From NCBI GenBank assembly GCA_949361645.1, contig OX442431.1, positions 7,774,849 through 7,838,848 of the forward strand: 64,000 bases of DNA, written 5' to 3'. The number at the start of each line of letters is the position of its first letter. Within the stretch, counting starts at the first letter, position 1. This document shows positions 12,135 to 24,738 of this stretch, one piece after another. The translations under genes and the position numbers were made by a program. The stretch is from Spongilla lacustris (lineage: Eukaryota; Porifera; Demospongiae; Spongillida; Spongillidae). The notes beneath the pieces are model-generated. The model saw only the letters and a list, made by a program, of their open reading frames with translations. It did no database searches and had not been told where the DNA came from.

Positions 12135-12475
12135 TCACAGACTCACAGCAGACCATCCGTCATAATTTCTATTTAATAACATAACACTGAAGTACATATA
12201 TGTACATGTATGTACAAAAACAGTTGGCGCACGCGGGATCCGCACACAGTCGGTACATGTACATACGCCTACCTGTATTGTTGACCGCTTAATATAAACG
12301 ACAGCATTAGAAATGTTTACATAGAGCCCCAAAGGCGCCTAAATAACAAGAAGGATCGGGGAAGAGTTACTGAGTGGCGACAAGGTAACGAAACTAGCAG
12401 TTACAGCACAAGTGCGTACGATACTATAGGTTAGTGGGACCGTACGTCTTCGTGCGCTCCATCCTAACACCCGAC
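12135..12475. other. Short intergenic region
   Basis: Between the BCAS3 stop and the next start codon. AT-rich with several tacatgtac steps; no clear poly(A) signal or promoter element seen. Confidence 0.5.
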
Positions 12476-15400
12476 ATGAGCAGGAGGGAGTCTGATGTAC
12501 AGCTGCAGTCTCCTATTCTCTTTTCGGCTGACGACCGCCTCGTAGATTCAATACCTGACAGAAGCGAGGTGTCCTTCCCGGCAAGCAACTTTCCATACAT
12601 AGGTTTTGACGGTGGGGCTCGTTCCCAAACAAACGTAGAGCCATCGGAGGTCCTATACAGTTACAGCCATTTGCTGGAAAGACCCACAAAGCTGCTTGGA
12701 CCCCACCAATCACGAGTGGGCATTATTCAGAGCTTCCAGATTAAACCTGCAAGTCCACCGGTTGCTAGACAGCTGTCACCAGTACCTGAGGCCAGCCGTA
12801 AAACCGCTCCAGATGATGTAAACGGAGCTGGCGCCAAAACAGTACGCTCTTACTCGCAGACATCACTGAACGCGCCAATGGAACAGTCCCCTTCGTCTTC
12901 CTCCACCAGCCCAACTTCTGCAGCCCAAGCTGATAAGTACGAGCATTCAAATGGGAAAGAAGGGCCGTTCCCATTGCCACAGGGGCCATCCAGGTTTGAG
13001 GACGTTGAGACCAGCTCAATTCTGTCAATGGAAGAGCTGACAGAAACCCTGAACGAGTTGCCTGCTCCAAACCTAGTGCCACATGGTAACAAAAGTACTA
13101 GTAGCAGAACAACACACACTACACCATTGCCGGCACCAGTGTCTGCTGCACATAGAGAATTAACCCCTTCCCTCCCGCATGATGCACACGATGCTAATGA
13201 CAGCTCCACACCAACGGACAACGGGAGTGTGGCCTCTCTCAACCACTCCCCTTCCTCCATCCCAGCTGTCACTCTGCTGCCCTCAATGCCTTCTCACATT
13301 CAGCCAGGAAAGGTTGTTGGAACAGATCCCTCCTCCCCAGCCTCCAGCCATGCCTGGCACAGTTTCCAATTCACTAGAAATGCATATTCTCACCCGGAAA
13401 CCCCCGGCACCCTCCTCCCTCTTCCTCCAACCAGCACATCTCCTGGGGAGGTCACTGAGGAGCAGCTTTCAGCGGCCATGAAGGCCAAGGCTCACCTGGA
13501 AGGTCAGCTGGAGAGTGTGGTGGAGGAGTGTAAGGCTCTCCTCCAGGATAGGGCGGAGCTACAGTCCAAGATGGCCAGAACAGAGGCAGCTCTGAGGGAG
13601 GCCGAGAGGAGGAGTCAGGAACAGTCGAAGACTCCCAGATCGGGGACAGTGTTGGAAGGTAGGGATGGGCCAGTGAAGGAGGAGCTGAGGCAGGTGAGTG
13701 CAGCACTGCAGAGGGAGCAGCAGCTGGCTGCAAGTGTCCAGGAGGCACTGGGGAGGGAGAAGGATGCCAAGCAGAAGTTACTGAACGAACTTACCCAGTG
13801 CAAGAGGAAGCTAGCGTCCCAGGAACCTGTTCTCAAAAGTGCCCAAGATCAGTGTGCCGCACTGCAAGCCCATTTGGAGCAGAAGAGCAAAGAGAAGGAA
13901 GGTGTTGATGGGAGGCTGGTGGCAGCAGAGGCACGCCTGAAGACCCTGGAGGAGTCCAAGCTTTGGTTGCACAACAAGCTAGACGACGCCCTCAACTTGA
14001 CCATGAAGCTGCAGAATGAGGTGAGGGACTCCAAGACTGCGGCCCTTGCGCACAGCATGAGAGCAGACCAGCTGAGGAAGGAGAATGCCAGCCTGCAGAG
14101 TCACATAGCTGAGCTGCACCAGGGCATGATGAGGGACAAGGAAGCCTTGGTGGGACAGCTGGAAGCCATAGAAGCTGATGTGCTGTCCCGAGAGGAGGCG
14201 TGTGAGCAGCTGGCTGCCAGTAGGCTCCAAATAGAAGACATGGTGCGGGGAAAGGCAGAGGAGATAGAAACACTCACCAACAAGCTGGCAGAATCCGAGA
14301 TGCAGAGGGGGGAGTTAGGGGAAGAGTTAGCGGAGGCTAGACTGGCCATCGAACAGATCACCCAAAACGGTCTGAAGGAGAAGAACTCTCTCATGGCAAA
14401 GCTGAGCGGGGTGGAGCAAGAGATGATAGCACTCGAGGCTAACACGAAGGCACTGGAGAAGCTCAATGCAGCGCTGCAGGAGAGGGTGCGGCAGTCTGAG
14501 GCCACAGCCATCAGCGGGGAGGGGGCAGCTCAGGGACTGAGGGAGACATGCAGAGCACTGCAGCGGGAGCTCGATGCATCAAAGGAAGCGTTGGATGGTG
14601 CTGAGGAGAAGCTGGAGGTAGCCGGCAGGGTGAATGAGGAAGTGGAGGCAGCGCTAAAGGTATCCCTTGAGCAGGAGAGGGTTAAGGAGGCACAGGTTAG
14701 GAGTCTGCTGGAAGGTCAAAGGTCAAGTGCTGCGGAGGTCCAAGCTCTGAGGAATGCCTTGGTGGAGAAGGAGAGGGAGGTGGCCCAACGCACTGCTGAG
14801 CTGGGTGCCATAGCAGCACAGTCCAAGGACATCACAGCCGCATTCCATTCTCTGCAGGAACACTTTCACACCATCTCTGCAGGTAGTGAGGATGTGGCAC
14901 AGAGAGACCAGACCATAGCTGCACTGAACACTCAGAAGGAGTCATTGGAACAACAGCTAGCAGGGTTGAAGGAGGAGAGGAATAAGTTGCTGGCGAAGAT
15001 GGATCAGCTGCAGCAGGATAAGGCCAGGCTGCAGGGGGAGCTAGAGGTGGCCAGGTCTTCTGATATGGAAGAGTTCCGTAAGGCTGTGCAAGGCAAGGCT
15101 GTTATCGAGTCAGAGCTGAGTATGGCCAAGCTAACTTACCAACAGGAGGTAGCCAAGGGGCAGAAGAGAGTGGGGAAACTTGAAACTGAACTGAAGTTAG
15201 TTAAGGATGGGTTTGCAGAGAGGGAGAAGGAATACCACCGGGTTATGCAGGAGAGGGAGCATGAGCTGGCCCGGGTCACAGGGGAGCACACCCGATCACA
15301 AGATGAGCTCCAGAAGATGAGAGAGCAGCTGGGGCAGGTGGAGCAGGGTAAGCAGGCAGCTGACCTTGCCCTACAGAGGGCAGAGGAGCAGATGGAAACC

Positions 15401-17057
15401 TTGCGAGGAGTCAATGACAGCCTGTCCAAGAACAATCGCGATCTTTTGGGTCAGCTTCAACAAGAGGTGGCACAGAGGTCAGAGGTGGAGAGGGCAAGTG
15501 GCCTGGTGACTCTGAAGGTGAAGCAGAATGCAGAGGAGAGGGAGAGGAGGCTGCAGGAGCAGGTGGGGGGGCTGACCCTCGAGGTGGAGAGGCTCAGAGG
15601 TAGGCTCTCTGGGATCAGCACTGCCCAGCTTTGCATGAGAGACCACGCTGGGGCACTAGAGGCAGCTCTGGCCACCAAGGAGTCATCTTTAGTGAAGCTC
15701 TCGGCGCAGACACAGAAGGCTTTGGAGGAGAAGGAGGAGGAGGAGCATGAGCGTGTGGCAGCCATCTTGCAACTCGAGCAGTCGGTGGAAGCTTTAAAGG
15801 AGGAGCTGCAGAAGACCAAAGAGAAGGCTGCAGCAGAGAGGAGGGAAGCAGCTGAGGCAGCACAGAGGTTGGAGCAGAAGGTGGCTGAGATTAGAGAACA
15901 GCATGGGGAAGAGGTGGAGAGCCTGAGGGGCAAGATGGAGCAGGTGGTGAGGGGAAGGGAGGAGCTGCAGGTGGAGGTGGGAGAGCTGAGGGTGCAGGTG
16001 GTCACAGCTAGGACGGCTGCTGACATGGCCAAGCAGGATTGGGCAAGCAAGTCCTCCCAGGTGGAGGTGCTGCAGAAGGAGCTGGAGGGGGCCAAAGCTC
16101 ACTGGAAGCAGGCCCAGGAGGAGGCACAGCGCCTTAGGGACCAGCTGAGGACCAGGGAGGAGCAGCATGTGGCTGAACTGGAGGTTGCTAGGAGACCGCT
16201 AGTTGAGAGCACTCCTCTTCGCAGGGGCCCCTCCAGCAATGACATGTCCACCACTGGTAGTACTGAGGAGACTGACACCTCTGGACTCACACCAGGTTTG
16301 TGTATTTTAAGAATTGTCTAAAAGCAAACATTCATCTCCTGACCCTCATTATCCCTCCTCTCCCTCCTCTCCCTCCTCCCCCTCCTCCCTCTCCCTCCCT
16401 CATCCTAGGAGCTCCATTGGATGCCAGTTATCTTAGTGAGGGGGACATGAGAAGGGACCGCCTTTCTGGTATCTTCTATCACAGCCATCTTAAGGAGATG
16501 GGGACCAGGCTTGAGCAGGCTCGCAAGCAGGGCCAGGAGGCAGCTGAACTTAAAAAAATGGGTGAGATCAAGGTATTGAAGAGTGAACTGGGCCAGAAGT
16601 CAAAGTAAGTGTGGGAAGCTACTAACATACCAAAAGTATCCCCTGTCTCCCTCCCCTCCCTTTCTCTCCCTTCCTCTCCATTTCTCACTCAAAGGACTGT
16701 TGGTAGTCTGCAGTCATGTTTGTACTCACTCAAGTAAGACACTTCATTACTTTATTCTGTATCCCTCTCATCCCCGTGCCTTTCCTACTTTCCCTCCACT
16801 TCCCCAGGGATGACATGGACAGGTTGCAGAAACAGATGGAGCAGCATACAGCAGCGGTGGTCGCCTCCCACCAGTCATCCAGGTCAGTCCCCAGTCCTGT
16901 GGGATGTCCAGTCCCCATTCCTATGGGATGTCCAGTCATGTCCAAACCCTTTGGCAGGCACATTGAGTCACAGATTGAGAGTCTGAAGAGAAGCTCACTA
17001 TCCCCATCCCTGCTCCCAGCGAGCAGTGTACCGTCTTCCAGGGACAAACGCCAGTGA
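12476..17057 (+). CDS. Long coiled-coil protein, unrecognised
   Basis: Three exons: 12476-16295, 16409-16604 and 16808-17057, joining in phase to about 1421 residues. The start is set at ATGAGCAGGAGG (12476); an in-frame ATG at 12434 would add 14 residues. Residues 1 to about 320 are low-complexity Ser/Pro/Thr-rich and likely disordered. From about residue 340 to 1240 it is almost unbroken coiled coil, rich in Glu, Gln, Leu, Lys and Arg with heptad leucines. The second exon encodes a short conserved-looking module (SYLSEGDMRRDRLSGIFY), then another helix and a Ser/Pro tail. This resembles golgin or centrosomal scaffolds in composition only; I cannot assign a family. The 3.8 kb first exon is atypical beside its intron-dense neighbours. 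Confidence 0.88.
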
Positions 17058-17855
17058 ACACTAATGAAAATCACAACTGAGCTATTGTTGGTGCCCCACC
17101 CACTGGTTGGCTGGTGCACACAAATTTTCATTAAACAGGATGTGTGTTGTGTGTGTGACATGACAGATTTCAGATGCATTTACATGTAGACCACAACACA
17201 GTTATGCTTGCATCATATAGTCATAACTGAGAGAACTGGTCTGTCCCTATGGGTGAGCTGGTCTGTCCCTATGGGTGAGCTGGTCTGTCCCTATGGGTGA
17301 GCTGGTCTGGTCTGTCCCTATGGGTGAGCTGGTCTGTCCCTATGGGTGAGCTGGTCTGTCCCTATGGGTGAGCTGGTCTGGTCTGTCCCTATGGGTGAGC
17401 TGGTCTGTCCCTATGGGTGAGCTGGTCTGGTCTGTCCCTATGGGTGAGCTGGTCTGTCCCTATGGGTGAGCTGGTCCGTCCCTGGGCTGTTTTGTGCACA
17501 TGCTGATAGATCTTATGACTAGCCAGCAATCTACTTACCAGTAAAAACATCTCTATTCACTAGGTGAGGACATATCCCTTTGTCTACTCATTTAAATGGC
17601 TCTTAAGAGGAGGAGCTGAAATATTCATTTTCACTGATAAGATCGGCCCTACATACAGCACCTTTTAAGGTCTGGGCACGATACACAACATTGAGGAGGC
17701 GGGGCAGCTGATTGTTTCTTTAGTTCGTTCACACGACGTCGACGACATTATAGAAGGTGCGCGTGACCCAGCTTGCGCCAGCCAAAGCGTCTTGTGATAC
17801 TGTGCAGCTTCTTATTTCGCTCAGCTTTTAGTTCTCAAGTCACTGTAGGCTTTTG
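17058..17855. other. Intergenic with 22-bp minisatellite
   Basis: Holds a minisatellite (17229-17482) and about 370 bp of unique sequence before the SRCR gene. A GC-rich patch (gaggaggcggggcagctg, about 17693) may belong to the SRCR promoter; this is a guess. Confidence 0.6.
17229..17482. repeat. 22-bp minisatellite, about 11 copies
   Basis: Unit gtccctatgggtgagctgg plus tct, with occasional 5-bp duplications (ctggt). Each unit carries a GTGAGC donor-like word. It lies just after the coiled-coil gene. Confidence 0.95.
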
Positions 17856-20800
17856 ATGCAGGGGGCACTCCTATTCGCGCTACTAGTGCAAGGTTTCCTC
17901 GTGCCCTCCCACAGTGAGTGTGCACAGATTGGCGTTATGAAACAGTTTTATTCGCCTATTTCCTTCACTTCTTCTTAGCTCAACCTTGCAGCCAAGATGG
18001 TGACACAAGACTGCTAAATTTTACATCCGACGTTTACGCCGGCTTCGTAGAGGTGTGTCTTGATGGGACATGGGGTACCATATGCGCCGACAGTCCGACA
18101 ACGCTTTGGAGCGAGAAGAATGCTCAAGTGTTCTGCATAGGTCTGGGCTACAGCGGAGCTCTCAACTCCGTAAACCAGAGCACGTAAGGAACGTACATTG
18201 CGTATGAGCGTCCATGACGTAATAGATGTAATATCTCAGATATTACGTCATGGCACGCGAGAATCAGCAGGCCAATACTTTTTAAAATAACATTTCAACG
18301 CGAAGCGCTGTCTTTTTAAATATACAGGACAAGTAACCCTAGGCTAGGTGATACAATTGTCTAACTTGGGGTTGCTAAGTTTGAGACGAACCTGTTATTA
18401 TAACAGCTGACCAAATAAATGTGTTCGATAGCCTCAAAGGTGGCATCATATTATGTAAAAGGTTATGGCAGTTGGTTACACCCCTCATTTACATGTGATT
18501 ATGCAAATTGCAAGGGGTTAAAAGTTCTCCTGAGCTGGCCAGCCGCAGTTCATAATTATTATAACTATTCATAAATTCATATTTTCACACACTACATTTT
18601 GGCCACCCATTGAACTGTGCATATTTTGTCCCACACAGACTACCGTCAGCATACCTCATCAATAATGGTTTGACCATTAACTACAGAGCTGTTCAGTGTG
18701 ATGGAACAGAAGCCACGTTGAGCCAATGTTCACACTCCACAAACACCACTGAATGTGACCACACCTATGATGCTGTTGTGGTCTGCAGACAGAGTTAGTC
18801 ATTAATGAATGTGTGTTAGTTATTAATGAATGTATGTTAGTTATTAATTGTGTTATTATTGGCTTTGTGCATACAGTACAAAATGCCATTGCTTTATGCG
18901 TGGTATTGTGTTATTTTCACCAGCTACAGAAGATGGAGACGTTCGATTGGTTGGAAGCATTGCTGATGGTCAGGGAGCAGTAGAGATATATGACCAGAAA
19001 ACATCCCAGTGGTATCACGTGTGCCCTTCTCCCTGGTTCATGTTTGTTGCACCTGTGGTGTGTAGGCAGCTGGGCTATGAATTTGGAAGCAACTACACAC
19101 TCGAGTATGTAATGGGTGTGCATTGGTACATGTGTGTATGGGTAATGGTACATGTGTGTATGGGTACTGGTGCATGTGTGTATGGGTACTGGTGCATGTG
19201 TGTATGGGTACTGGTGCATGTGTGTATGGGTACTGGTGCATGTGTGTATGGGTACTGGTGCATGTGTGTATGGGTACTGGTGCATGTGTGTATGGGTACT
19301 GGTGCATGTGTGTATGGGTACTGGTGCATGTGTGTATGGGTACTGGTGCATGTGTGTATGGGCACTGGTGCATGTGTGTATGGGTACTGGTACATGTGTG
19401 TATGGGTACTGGTGCATGTGTGTATGGGCACTGGTGCATGTGTGTATGGGTACTGGTACATGTGTGTATGGGTACTGGTACATGTGTGTATGGGTACTGG
19501 TGCATGTGTGTATGGGCACTGGTGCATGTGTGTATGGGCACTGGTGCATGTGTGTATGGGCACTGGTACATGTGTGTATGGGTACTGGTGCATGTGTGTA
19601 TGGGCACTGGTGCATGTGTGTATGGGTACTGGTACATGTGTGTATGGGTACTGGTGCATGTGTGTATGGGCACTGGTGCATGTGTGTATGGGCACTGGTG
19701 CATGTGTGTATGGGCACTGGTACATGTGTGTATGGGCACTGGTACATGTGTGTATGGGTACTGGTGCATGTGTGTATGGGCACTGGTGCATGTGTGTATG
19801 GGCACTGGTGCATGTGTGTATGGGCACTGGTACATGTGTGTATGGGTACTGGTGCATGTGTGTATGGGTACTGGTGCATGTGTGTATGGGTACTGGTACA
19901 TGTGTGTATGGGTACTGGTGCATGTGTGTATGGGCACTGGTGCATGTGTGTATGGGCACTGGTGCATGTGTGTATGGGCACTGGTACATGTGTGTATGGG
20001 TACTGGTGCATGTGTGTATGGGCACTGGTGCATGTGTGTATGGGCACTGGTACATGTGTGTATGGGCACTGGTGCATGTGTGTATGGGCACTGGTACATG
20101 TGTGTATGGGTACTGGTACATGTGTGTATGGGCACTGGTACATGTGTGTATGGGCACTGGTGCATGTGTGTATGGGCACTGGTACATGTGTGTATGGGCA
20201 CTGGTGCATGTGTGTATGGGCACTGGTGCATGTGTGTATGGGTACTGGTGCATGTGTGTATTGGTTAATACACACACTTGATCAACAGGATGAAGAATAG
20301 TTAATGATATGATTATGGTACCAATAGTTTGTGCACCAGGTACCAATAGTTTGTACACCAGGTACCAATAGTTTGTGCACCAGGTACCAATAGTTTGTGC
20401 ACCAGGTACCAATAGTTTGTGCACCAGGTACCAATAGTTTGTGCACCAGGTACCAATAGTTTGTGCACCAGGTACCAATAGTTTGTGCACCAGGTACCAA
20501 TAGTTTGTGCACCAGGTACCAATAGTTTGTGCACCAGGTACCAATAGTTTGTGCACTATAACTCAACTGACCTATAGAAGGAACTGTATATGATTTAAAT
20601 AGTTGTGCCACATCCAATAACCTTTTGAGGTCACATGACTCGTGTCCTGCTAGCAGTACCTAAGGTCACCTCTATGGTCCTTGAGGCCACCTCTACGGTC
20701 ATTGAGGTCACCTCTATGGTCCTTGAGGTCCTATGAGATGACTCGCATACATAAGAAGGTGGAGTAACAATAGACAATGTTATTTAAGGGCTAGGCCCCA

Positions 20801-21727
20801 CCCATTTGGGATACAACTCAGCACACTTCACCCTTGTACTGTTCAGCCTTAATGGAAGCAGCCTTCAACAGGTGTCAGTCACCATCTGCACCTCATCAAG
20901 GTGTTACATCACATCCGGTACATCATGCCCCGCCCCTTCACCACTCAGTGCAGCTGTGATATGCTCCAACAGCAGTAAGCTCATTGGGTGTTGGCCCCTC
21001 CCCGTTCTGTTATGTGCCCAATTCCATGCAGATGGTGATAGTACTTTTGATAAACGGCTAGGTGGTAGTAGTGTGTTTGGTGAGGGTAGATTGGAGGTCT
21101 ACTACAATGGAGTGTGGGGTACCATTTGTAACAACAATGGCTGGACATCAGCTGATGCACAAGGAGTGTGCCGTATTGTGGTTGGCGGGAATGCGTCTTC
21201 AGCTACTGTTGGACCAGCTGCAATGTGAGGGTGTAGGGTGCATGGTGTAGGGTGTGCTATGTGTGTGCATGCATGTAAGTATTGTCTCATAATAGTTCAG
21301 CAGACTCCGCTTCTCTCAAGCCAATCTGGTTAAGTGGCGTTACCTGTAACACCAATAGCAACTCATGCAACTACAAACTTCCTGTTGGATATGGACAGTC
21401 GTGCAACCATTCCAATGATGTCATGCTGTACTGCTATGGCCTCCCTACTCCTGCCCCACCCCCAGGTAGTGTGTGGTGCATGCCATGTGATGGTCAGCTG
21501 ACATTGCTACTTTCACATTTCCAGCAAGTGATGCCTTCCCCCTGCCTGTACTGGGGGTACTAGGGGTCATCCCCGTGTGTGTCCTTATTGGTCTGTTTGC
21601 TGGCTGGAGGTGGAGGAGGAGAAGAGCTGGTGGTAAGGACGTGAGCGCCAGAGAAGATACAGTTCTGTACACGAAGATCAAGAACAGGGACAATCACCAG
21701 TACAGTAGCATTGAACCCAATGTATGA
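17856..21727 (+). CDS. SRCR-domain type I membrane receptor with ITAM-like tail
   Basis: Probable cell-surface receptor. Exons by splice and phase: 17856-17913 (signal peptide MQGALLFALLVQGFLVPSHT), 17979-18183, 18639-18793, 18924 to about 19108, about 20847-20974, 21032-21224, 21296-21465, 21525-21727. Three scavenger-receptor cysteine-rich-like modules are visible: one starting DGDTRLLNF with GTWGTICAD and AVQCDGTEATLSQCSH; a divergent one with DGDVRLVGS and VVCRQLGYEFG; and one with GRLEVYYNGVWGTICNN. The last exon encodes a membrane helix (VLGVLGVIPVCVLIGLFAGW), a basic stop-transfer stretch and a short tail with YTKI, seven residues, then YSSI, which fits the ITAM pattern. The join across the long 22-bp array (19110-20265) is uncertain. 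The ligand is unknown; SRCR receptors are abundant in sponges. Confidence 0.85.
19110..20265. repeat. 22-bp minisatellite, about 52 copies
   Basis: Unit tgcatgtgtgtatgggtact plus gg, with two polymorphic sites (tact/cact and tgca/taca). It lies in an SRCR-gene intron and begins within a few tens of bp of the donor. No stop codons in any plus frame, so it creates long spurious ORFs. Confidence 0.97.
20322..20556. repeat. 22-bp minisatellite, about 11 copies
   Basis: Unit accaatagtttgtgcaccag plus gt, almost perfect, in the same SRCR-gene intron. A weaker 21-bp repeat (ccttgaggtcacctctatgg) follows at about 20660-20735. Confidence 0.96.
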
Positions 21728-22206
21728 CATCATATGATAACTAGCATTACTAACAGGTTGACATATAAACATCACAGATACCAGGGATATACTGAGGAAG
21801 GTAACATAACCAGGGATATACTGAGGAAGGTAACATAACCAGGGATATACTGAGGAAGGTAACATAACCAGGGATATACTGAGGAAGGTAACATATACTG
21901 AGGTAGGTAAAATAACCAGGGATATACTGAGGAAGGTAACATAACCAGGGATATACTGAGGAAGGTAAAATAACCAGGGATATACTGAGGAAGGTAAAAT
22001 AACCAGGGATATACTGAGGAAGGTAAAATAACCAGGGATATACTGAGGAAGGTAACATAACATAGATAGTGCAAAACAGTACAAATACCCTCCTCCCCCT
22101 CCCATCTCAGACCAGTTATTGAACAGAAAAAAATGTACTTAAATGTAACAGACAGACCAATGGGATGTATGTTTGCAAGTGTAGACACAGGCACACACAG
22201 CACACA
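21728..22206. other. Convergent intergenic region with 29-bp minisatellite
   Basis: Between the SRCR-gene stop and the SPT6 stop. Holds a 29-bp repeat (21778-22066, about ten copies, unit containing accagggatatactgaggaa). The rest is 3'-flanking sequence without clear signals. Confidence 0.8.
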
Positions 22207-24738
22207 TCACTCGTCCATAACTGGTGTCCCCGTGACAGATGTGGGCTTCCTGTGACTGTATCGACTGTGTCCGTGGGTGTGGCCAGTGGAGGGAGGTCTA
22301 GGAGACTGTGAAGGTGTGTATGCTGACCCTGGAGTCTGTGAAGGTGTCCGGGAACTGGACCCAGTCCAATTGGTCTGGGCCTGGTTCCATCCACTACTCC
22401 TCTGCTGGTACACTGTACTGCCAAACTGGTACTGTCCTCCTCCTCCCCCCGTGGCCCCTCCCCCTGCAGTAAACTGTCCTTGTTGCAAGACTAGCTGCTG
22501 AGGGTAAGCCTGCTGAGAATGGCCTGAGAACTGGGGAGTGGGTGTGGCTCCAACCCACTGGGAGGGGGTGTAAGGCGTGTCCCCTGTTCCTCTGTGTTGG
22601 TGCACTGTCTGAATGGCCGCCTGGAGATTGGACAACATTCCCGGATCAACCATGCCCATCACCGTGGAGACAGCGGGGGAGGATGGCACCGCAGGTTTTG
22701 GGATGGGCTCTTTATAATGTTCTTTGAACCACTTCACCAGTTCGTTCACAGATCTGTGTACCTTGTTACGATAATGCACTCCCTCAGGCACCAACGAAAT
22801 CATCTCAAAGTAAGGTCTGGAGCCCGGCTGATAGGCGACAATGAACTTTCCTGGGCATGGCTTGCAGGCACTGAAGAAGTAGGGAATCCTCTTCGGGTTC
22901 TTGTGCTTCTCCTCTGCCAAGATCTTCCTGAGAGTGTCCTTGTTCCCGCCATCGGCCCCCCGGTAGCACTTATTGGCCAGCAGGTCCCTGGCGTTCGCTG
23001 CCATTGGCTGGATGTAGCGAGCGAGTATTTCGTCCAAGTCTTCAAACACCTAAGAAGACACATACACACATGTGATGAAATGGCAGATAAGAGGGATTGA
23101 GCTGGGTGAACAGCACACATGGCCATGGAGCAGCACACAAGGCCATGGAGCAGCACACAAGGCCATGGAGCAGCACACAAGGCCATGGAGCAGCACACAA
23201 GGCCATGGAGCAGCACACAAGGCCATGGAGCAGCACACAAGGCCATGGAGCAGCACACAAGGCCATGGAGCAGCACACAAGGCCATGGAGCAGCACACAA
23301 GGCCATGGAGCAGCACACAAGGCCATGGAGCAGCACACATGGAGCAGCACACAAGGCCATGGAGCAGCACACAAGGCCATGGAACAGCACACAAGGCCAT
23401 GGAGCAGCACACATGGAGCAGCACACAAGGCCATGGAGCAGCACACAAGGCCTTGGAGCAGCACACAAGGCCATGGAGCAGCACACAAGGCCATGAAGCA
23501 GCACACAAGGCCATGGAGCAGCACACATGGAGCAGCACACAAGGCCATGGAGCAGCACACAAGGCCATGGAGCAGCACACAAGGCCATGGAGCAGCACAC
23601 AAGGCCATGGAGCAGCACACAAGGCCATGCAGACACACCTCGTTGCCAATTTTCAGGGTCTTTCCAATACTAAATGGAGTCGGCTTGTCTTGCTCCTTGA
23701 TGTCGACATGTTGAAGAATATCATTATCAACCTTCCATGTGACAGTCAGGTGATCTGGCCCCTGTCATTGTGTGCAGGAGTGATCAATCACACATCAAAC
23801 ACATTCTGAGGTTGTTCTAACCTTGCTACTAGGTCTAAAGATGGCCTCTCCCTGATCCATTGATGCAAGGTCCCGCTCAGCCTCAGCAAAAGTACAGTTC
23901 TTAAATGATGGATGAACGATGACTCGCTTGACATAAGCTACACACAGACCACCATTAACAAAGGAAGGGAACAGAGACCATTATTAACAAAGGGGAGGGA
24001 CACAGACCATTATTAACAAAGGGGAGGGACACACCATTATTAAACCATTATTAACAAAGGGAGGGGACAGAGGAATGGTAGAGAGAAATGTGTTAGCAGT
24101 AGGGGTGGGGAGGAGGGCTGGGGAGGAGGATCATACCCTGCTGAGGTTGCTGCTTCACAGCCTCTTCTTTCTTCTTCTCAACTTCGGCCAGAGCTGTGTC
24201 ATAGTAAGTGTCCCTAGGTGCACTGGGGAGGAGGGTATGGAGAGGGATAAGGTTAGGAGGATGGGAGAGGGTAAGGAGAGGGATAAGGGGTTAGGGGGAA
24301 GCAGGGATGGTTGGTTAAAGGGAGGGTGGGTGGGGGTGGTTGTGTTGTACCTGAACTTTCCTTCCTTATCAGCAAGGTCTGAGGACCTGCAGGTAAGGTC
24401 CACAGAGAACTTGTCCAGATTCACTCTCAAAATACGGCAATGGATAGTCATTCCAATCTGATATGGGAAGTAGGGGAGGGGCATATGGGAGGGGCATAGG
24501 GAGAGGCATATGGGAGGGGCATAGGGAGAGGCACATGGGAGGGGCACAGGGGAGGGGCATAAGGGAGGGGTGGCACAGGGGAGGGGCCTGTACCTGTATT
24601 CTTTCCTCAGGTGCATTCACATGCTTATCGCTCAGGTTCTTGGTGAGGATGAAGCCACTGAGGCCATTCTCTAGACGTGTACGTACGCCTATACCCTGAC
24701 CAGGGCAACTGCCATCATCAAAGTGTTGCCACACCTGT

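Follow-up and report, generated by a model that had tools for sequence, protein, structure and literature searches.

The window, that is, the whole 64,000-nucleotide stretch of Spongilla lacustris DNA analysed here, encodes a scavenger-type, single-pass receptor with three SRCR domains. Its short cytoplasmic tail is best read as a tyrosine docking segment for SH2 proteins and/or a YxxPhi signal for uptake, a reading to which we give about an even chance. The tail also fits the ITAM pattern exactly; its ITAM spacing, seen in the window gene only, could in principle let Syk bind with its tandem SH2 domains. What is shared with the one close relative, P0001, is a two-tyrosine core, EDTxLYTK...YxSI.

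A single gene model for ectodomain, helix and tail

The receptor gene model consists of eight plus-strand exons, separated by GT-AG introns of compatible phases, that join into a single open reading frame of 430 amino acids. From its N-terminus, the protein has a signal peptide followed by three SRCR domains, then a single membrane helix, the basic stretch RWRRRR and a 40-residue tail. Exon 1 (17856..17913, with an alternative donor after 17919) provides the start codon and the signal peptide, which was called by eye from the hydrophobic N-terminus MQGALLFALLVQGFLVPSH. Each SRCR domain is divided between two exons. The halves of the first lie on exons 2 (17979..18183) and 3 (18639..18793), both placed by the splice model and Pfam. 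Those of the second lie on exon 4 (18924..19104; donor GTATGT), placed by the splice model, Pfam and the alignment with P0001, and on exon 5 (20847..20974), placed by the splice model and the same alignment. The third begins on exon 6 (21032..21224; splice model and Pfam) and ends on exon 7 (21296..21465; splice model and P0001 alignment), which continues into a Pro-rich stalk. By eye, the acceptor of exon 7, TCTCATAATAG, is the weakest of the model; the P0001 alignment crosses it gap-free. Pfam recognizes three SRCR stretches (PF00530) that total 146 bits, where the cut-off is 26.1, which places the protein in the SRCR superfamily.

Exon 8 (21525..21727) holds the juxtamembrane residues, the helix, the RWRRRR stop-transfer, the cytoplasmic tail and a TGA stop. 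Hydropathy averaged over 19 residues exceeds 1.6 solely at residues 364-393, with the best window at 370-388; the helix was accordingly placed at about residues 368-390 (21536..21604, plus strand), and the corresponding part of P0001 has a similar score. The initial annotation had read in this exon a membrane helix, a basic stop-transfer and a short tail, and all three are found there; its coordinates coincide exactly with this exon, stop codon included.

A full-protein search scored 7,983 candidates, of which 851 reached E<=0.001; among the best 120 of these, which were used, P0001 is the best relative, with 62% identity across 96% of the window protein. It is a protein of 415 residues (source tag lgn) from a 1,626-base contig, and aligned globally it agrees with the window protein at 267 of 413 aligned residues (65%). 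Since its reading frame joins three SRCR domains to the FPLPVLGVLGVIPV membrane segment seen here and to a tail of related sequence, P0001 supports the gene model. The splice phases fit as well, so that the last exon is predicted to join the SRCR exons, as the initial annotation had supposed. An origin of exon 8 from a different gene was considered and ruled out, given that its acceptor and phase match exon 7 and that the P0001 reading frame unites the same parts. A search of the genome for a second copy of exon 8 returned none at E<=10. The continuous spliced frame, from signal peptide through three SRCR domains and helix to tail, is one line of support for the docking-segment reading.

Intron 7 (21466-21524) is just 59 bases long. 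Were it retained, the frame would change and translation would stop at 21563, giving a protein with no membrane helix, possibly a soluble isoform. The introns and flanks of the gene contain minisatellites (17236-17483, 19124-20265, 20317-20556, 21780-22061 and 23111-23629) that differ from one another; their period is mostly 20-22 bases, with 29 at 21780-22061, and the array in intron 4 has some 52 copies. Downstream, a convergent neighbour on the minus strand (22207-23049) matches PF14633 (SH2_2) and is likely to belong to an SPT6-like elongation factor, as its C-terminal exon. Upstream, a long plus-strand reading frame (12398-16321) looks coiled-coil-like by eye; Pfam gave no match at E<=0.01 for 12398-16300.

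The tail motif and its chance expectation

The 40 residues after the helix, WRWRRRRAGGKDVSAREDTVLYTKIKNRDNHQYSSIEPNV, are expected to be disordered. They contain YTKI (Y412; 21668..21679, plus strand) and YSSI (Y423; 21701..21712, plus strand), the only two Yxx[IL] motifs in the whole protein, and acidic residues stand N-terminal to the first tyrosine. Exactly seven residues separate the two motifs, and thus the strict pattern Yxx[IL]-x6-8-Yxx[IL] is matched; the ITAM-like motif first noticed in this sequence is confirmed in spacing and in its location C-terminal to the membrane helix. YSSI additionally fits YxxPhi. The ITIM consensus is (I/V/L/S)xYxx(I/L/V), and VLYTKI matches it too, in agreement with the earlier remark.

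How surprising is the ITAM match? The strict pattern arose in 94 of 200,000 shuffles of the receptor tail (0.05%) and in 167 of 100,000 random 40-mers of average amino-acid composition (0.17%). More than 600 SRCRs are reported from the transcriptome of Halichondria panicea (PMC8242945). At 0.05-0.17% per tail, a family of that size would yield roughly 0.3-1 chance matches, were every SRCR so tailed, or about one per several hundred SRCR genes. Thus, the strict match is rare for one chosen tail and not rare across a large family. On a rough estimate, a scan of the whole genome for ITAM codons would yield tens of thousands of chance matches. The figures for tails favour the view that the ITAM match is a coincidence and that neither tyrosine has a particular function, as does P0126, a DMBT1-like SRCR protein of the fish Channa argus, whose predicted tail contains an isolated strict match, YEMLDTKNNYTVYGDL. 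We nevertheless consider this view rather unlikely, since P0001 keeps both tyrosines together with their neighbours despite 35% divergence and an indel between them.

Comparison with the nearest relative

The comparison of the two tails, KEDTFLYTKNDSKYQSI in P0001 and REDTVLYTKIKNRDNHQYSSIEPNV in the window protein, shows what is shared and what differs. Fifteen of 29 aligned residues are identical (52%), below the 65% of the whole protein; among those kept are both tyrosines, EDT, LYTK and YxSI. In the first motif, Y412, T413 and K414 are the same, and the fourth position is N in P0001, giving YTKN. In the second, YSSI of the window gene corresponds to YQSI. The spacer between the motifs is three residues in P0001 as opposed to seven in the window gene. 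P0001 is therefore not an ITAM protein, on account of both YTKN and the short spacer; its C-terminal residues are perhaps cut by the contig end, which leaves the spacer unaffected. P0001 is an orthologue or, if not, a close paralogue.

Conservation of the ITAM among orthologues, which the initial annotation had set as a check, is accordingly not borne out: the motif is absent from P0001, an outcome named there as refuting, and from three Ephydatia relatives, with few relatives to compare. The same check of the tails in relatives came out in two parts, in that both tyrosines are kept in the one close relative, but the Yxx(I/L) pair and its spacing are not. That P0001 has both tyrosines in the same setting makes it likely that the tail works through them, even should the ITAM prove not to be widespread. 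The full ITAM match could be peculiar to this lineage or a product of chance.

Two further readings are affected by this comparison. According to the first, the tail serves mainly for endocytosis, with YSSI, and possibly YTKI, binding the mu subunit of AP-2 in unphosphorylated form and no ITAM signalling at all. Of the two motifs, only YxSI retains the full YxxPhi form in P0001 (YSSI/YQSI), and an SRCR receptor, CD163, is reported to use YREM for internalization (PMC12273918). Since YxxPhi-type motifs are common, appearing in 53,313 of 200,000 shuffles of the receptor tail (27%), this conservation is weak evidence. Moreover, the residues EDTxLYTK around Y412 are conserved although P0001 has no YxxPhi there, which AP-2 binding does not explain. 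We hold this reading to be tentative and somewhat less likely than not. According to the second, the receptor is inhibitory and Y412, within VLYTKI, is an ITIM for an SHP-2-like phosphatase. An exon for an SHP-2-like C-SH2 domain is indeed present in the genome, and the second motif of P0001, SKYQSI, fits the ITIM consensus as well. The fitting site, however, differs between the two proteins: VLYTKI fits and HQYSSI does not in the window protein, whereas FLYTKN does not and SKYQSI does in P0001. An inhibitory role thus seems very unlikely.

Tails across the subfamily

A second search, in which the window protein aligned with P0001 served as query, gave 537 of 7,984 candidates at E<=1e-10, of which 120 were used; pooling both searches yielded 178 retrieved proteins. 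Eleven of these carry the signature W-x-[EH]-KNA, ten as EKNA and P0040 as HKNA. The carriers are P0004 from Ephydatia muelleri, P0040 from Geodia barretti, five others with Em names, and P0001, P0018, P0043 and P0049; the species name Ephydatia muelleri is attached to P0004 only, and the Em prefix of the others was read as the same species. Among the retrieved proteins, all named members of the subfamily are from sponges. P0004 (EMCRGX_G015111), P0002 (Em0005g808a) and P0003 (Em0005g769a) are 47-52% identical to the window protein.

The C-terminus is readable in seven of the eleven carriers (P0001, P0002-P0004, P0049, P0018 and P0043); P0005, P0010, P0037 and P0040 were excluded, with C-termini that look partial or chimeric. 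None of the seven has the strict ITAM. P0002 fits no more than a relaxed pattern, in which the spacer is 12 residues long and the final position is V. PPxY tails are found in P0002-P0004 and P0049, and P0018 and P0043 have almost no tail. Judged from these sequences, the subfamily conserves its ectodomain and differs in its tail, which, given members with PPxY tails or almost none, appears to be replaceable. Similar W-x-EKNA ectodomains can thus be seen to bear a tyrosine pair, PPxY or almost no tail (P0001-P0004, P0018, P0043, P0049). It is possible that the last exon has been exchanged repeatedly in this subfamily; with the whole helix and tail of the window gene in one last exon, such an exchange would be easy.

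More broadly, a simple hydropathy rule finds in 30 of the 178 proteins a membrane segment with 15 or more residues after it, although in some of them this stretch is no real tail, since SRCR sequence follows. A YxxPhi motif (Yxx[LIMFV]) occurs in 17 of the 30, PPxY in 13 and the strict ITAM in one, the fish protein P0126. A search with the tail region only (residues 361-430) considered 286 candidates and returned none at E<=10; this says little, since P0001, with its related tail, was also missed. Within the same genome, the 3' ends of ten SRCR loci were surveyed, one of which is mostly N, leaving nine readable. Likely membrane exons were seen in L043, L044 and L049, and possibly in L047, with their tails in further exons. 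A loose-pattern match in L043 was not counted, as it continues from the membrane segment into T/C-rich, intron-like sequence.

Signalling proteins of the same genome

A search of the genome for SH2 domains gave 68 matches; 23 of 30 SH2 loci were translated, with the plus-strand loci properly read, and further Syk-like genes may lie on the minus strand. A tandem SH2 locus lies at C24:2993650-2995782, with domains at 2993650 and 2995552 on one strand and FLVR in both. Against the PDB, its first eleven matches are all tandem SH2 chains of SYK or ZAP-70, the best at E 9.3e-41. Kinase exons follow downstream (locus L040) with HRDLAARN, DFG and GRWPLKWYAPE, and, when joined, match ZAP-70 and SYK best, behind only an EGFR entry that is scored over two copies summed in one chain. 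The species thus has a kinase of the Syk/ZAP-70 tandem-SH2 type. The same locus includes a repeat array with repetitive frames at about 850-2600. A Src-family SH2-kinase is also encoded in the genome, and the Syk-type, Src-type and SHP-2-like genes together would equip the species to recognize an ITAM once phosphorylated.

This brings the strongest form of the ITAM hypothesis into view, namely that YTKI-x7-YSSI, once phosphorylated on both tyrosines, would engage the two SH2 domains of Syk and activate it from a single chain. The exact consensus with its preceding acidic residues, the Syk-type tandem SH2 and kinase exons, and a Syk-family kinase recorded in Amphimedon (PMC9601881) all argue for it. 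The absence of the pattern from P0001, from three Ephydatia relatives and from every readable subfamily member argues against it. So does a survey in which only those invertebrates with CARD-CC and Bcl10 are reported to have vertebrate-like Syk homologues (PMC5978004); porifera are listed in the same survey among the animals with type 2 paracaspases. On balance, we regard a true one-chain ITAM as unlikely. The initial proposal of a one-chain activating receptor therefore stands as regards the exact motif and the presence of a Syk-type kinase, and fails as regards ITAM conservation, while its signalling would be a prediction from sequence.

Discussion

We propose that the window gene encodes a surface receptor whose tail would serve as a docking and/or uptake segment. 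Clustering by ligand would bring a Src-type kinase to Y412 and Y423, and one or both phosphotyrosines would recruit SH2 proteins; when unphosphorylated, YxSI would act as the YxxPhi signal for uptake by AP-2. The outcome might be binding followed by internalization and a modest signal. Beyond the continuous reading frame, this proposal draws on the shared tyrosine core in P0001, on the frequency of YxxPhi motifs in the tails retrieved, on the Src-type and Syk-type kinases of the genome, and on the vertebrate precedents of CD163, through YREM, and WC1, where YEEL is reported to act in T-cell co-receptor signalling (PMC2906472). Against it, the conservation rests on one relative, the tail is less conserved than the protein as a whole, a YxxPhi-type motif arises readily by chance, and the tail is replaceable in the subfamily. 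Our confidence in this proposal overlaps with that in the alternatives, because it leaves open which use of the tyrosines is dominant.

An ancient ITAM receptor is possible. A more specific scenario, which we think improbable, is that in this sponge lineage an SRCR receptor gained a complete one-chain ITAM on a pre-existing two-tyrosine tail and signals through sponge Syk. The change proposed for that gain is small, comprising a few residues in the spacer and, in the first motif, a difference between N and I at position four. If the tail does bind sponge Syk, an early-branching animal would link what an SRCR receptor recognizes to Syk within a single chain, and the base of the animal tree would have a self-contained SRCR-ITAM-Syk axis. 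The window gene and P0001 would then show how altering the spacer makes or abolishes an ITAM, and would leave visible the step that separates a tail with two tyrosines from an ITAM. If it does not, the gene provides a clean example in which a consensus match in a single genome is not evidence of ITAM signalling, its nearest relative having no ITAM.

An ITAM-tailed SRCR receptor from a sponge was not found among the titles and abstract openings of open-licence PMC articles, and, by term counts, the words ITAM and tyrosine are missing from the main text of a genome-wide study of invertebrate SRCRs (PMC10855680).

Several known systems resemble the window gene in part. Among sponges, Ephydatia P0002-P0004 share the three-SRCR ectodomain with the signature LWSEKNA, and differ in their long Pro-rich PPxY tails, with no strict ITAM. 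Among vertebrates, CD5, which has three SRCR domains, CD6 and CD163 are group B SRCR proteins, characterized by eight cysteines and one exon per SRCR domain. The window gene, in contrast, uses two exons per SRCR domain and falls outside group B as so defined; its first SRCR domain also has no fourth cysteine, with LGY where group B has LGC. For these reasons, CD5 and CD163 are treated here as analogues, even though CD163 is the best PDB match of the window protein by sequence (E 2.8e-57). CD5 is alike in being a lymphocyte SRCR surface receptor for which an ITAM-like cytoplasmic motif is described (PMC8158487). CD163, WC1 and CD163c-alpha likewise combine an SRCR ectodomain with Yxx(I/L/M) motifs in the tail; unlike the window gene, they are vertebrate and of group B, and the motifs described for them are single tyrosine motifs as opposed to the spaced pair here.

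Among invertebrates, the alr receptors of Hydractinia (ITAM/ITIM) and the proteins of the Botryllus fuhc locus (hemITAM/ITIM) are surface receptors in genomes reported to contain Syk-family and other pathway genes, with different ectodomains and a role in allorecognition; fester and uncle fester of Botryllus are themselves described as having no known signalling domain (PMC12065747). The oyster CgIgIT2 is a one-chain pattern-recognition receptor with a classic ITAM, as the window gene would be, but is built from five Ig domains with no SRCR (PMC11999971). SRCR receptors with tyrosine motifs, and ITAM receptors of invertebrates, are therefore each already known.
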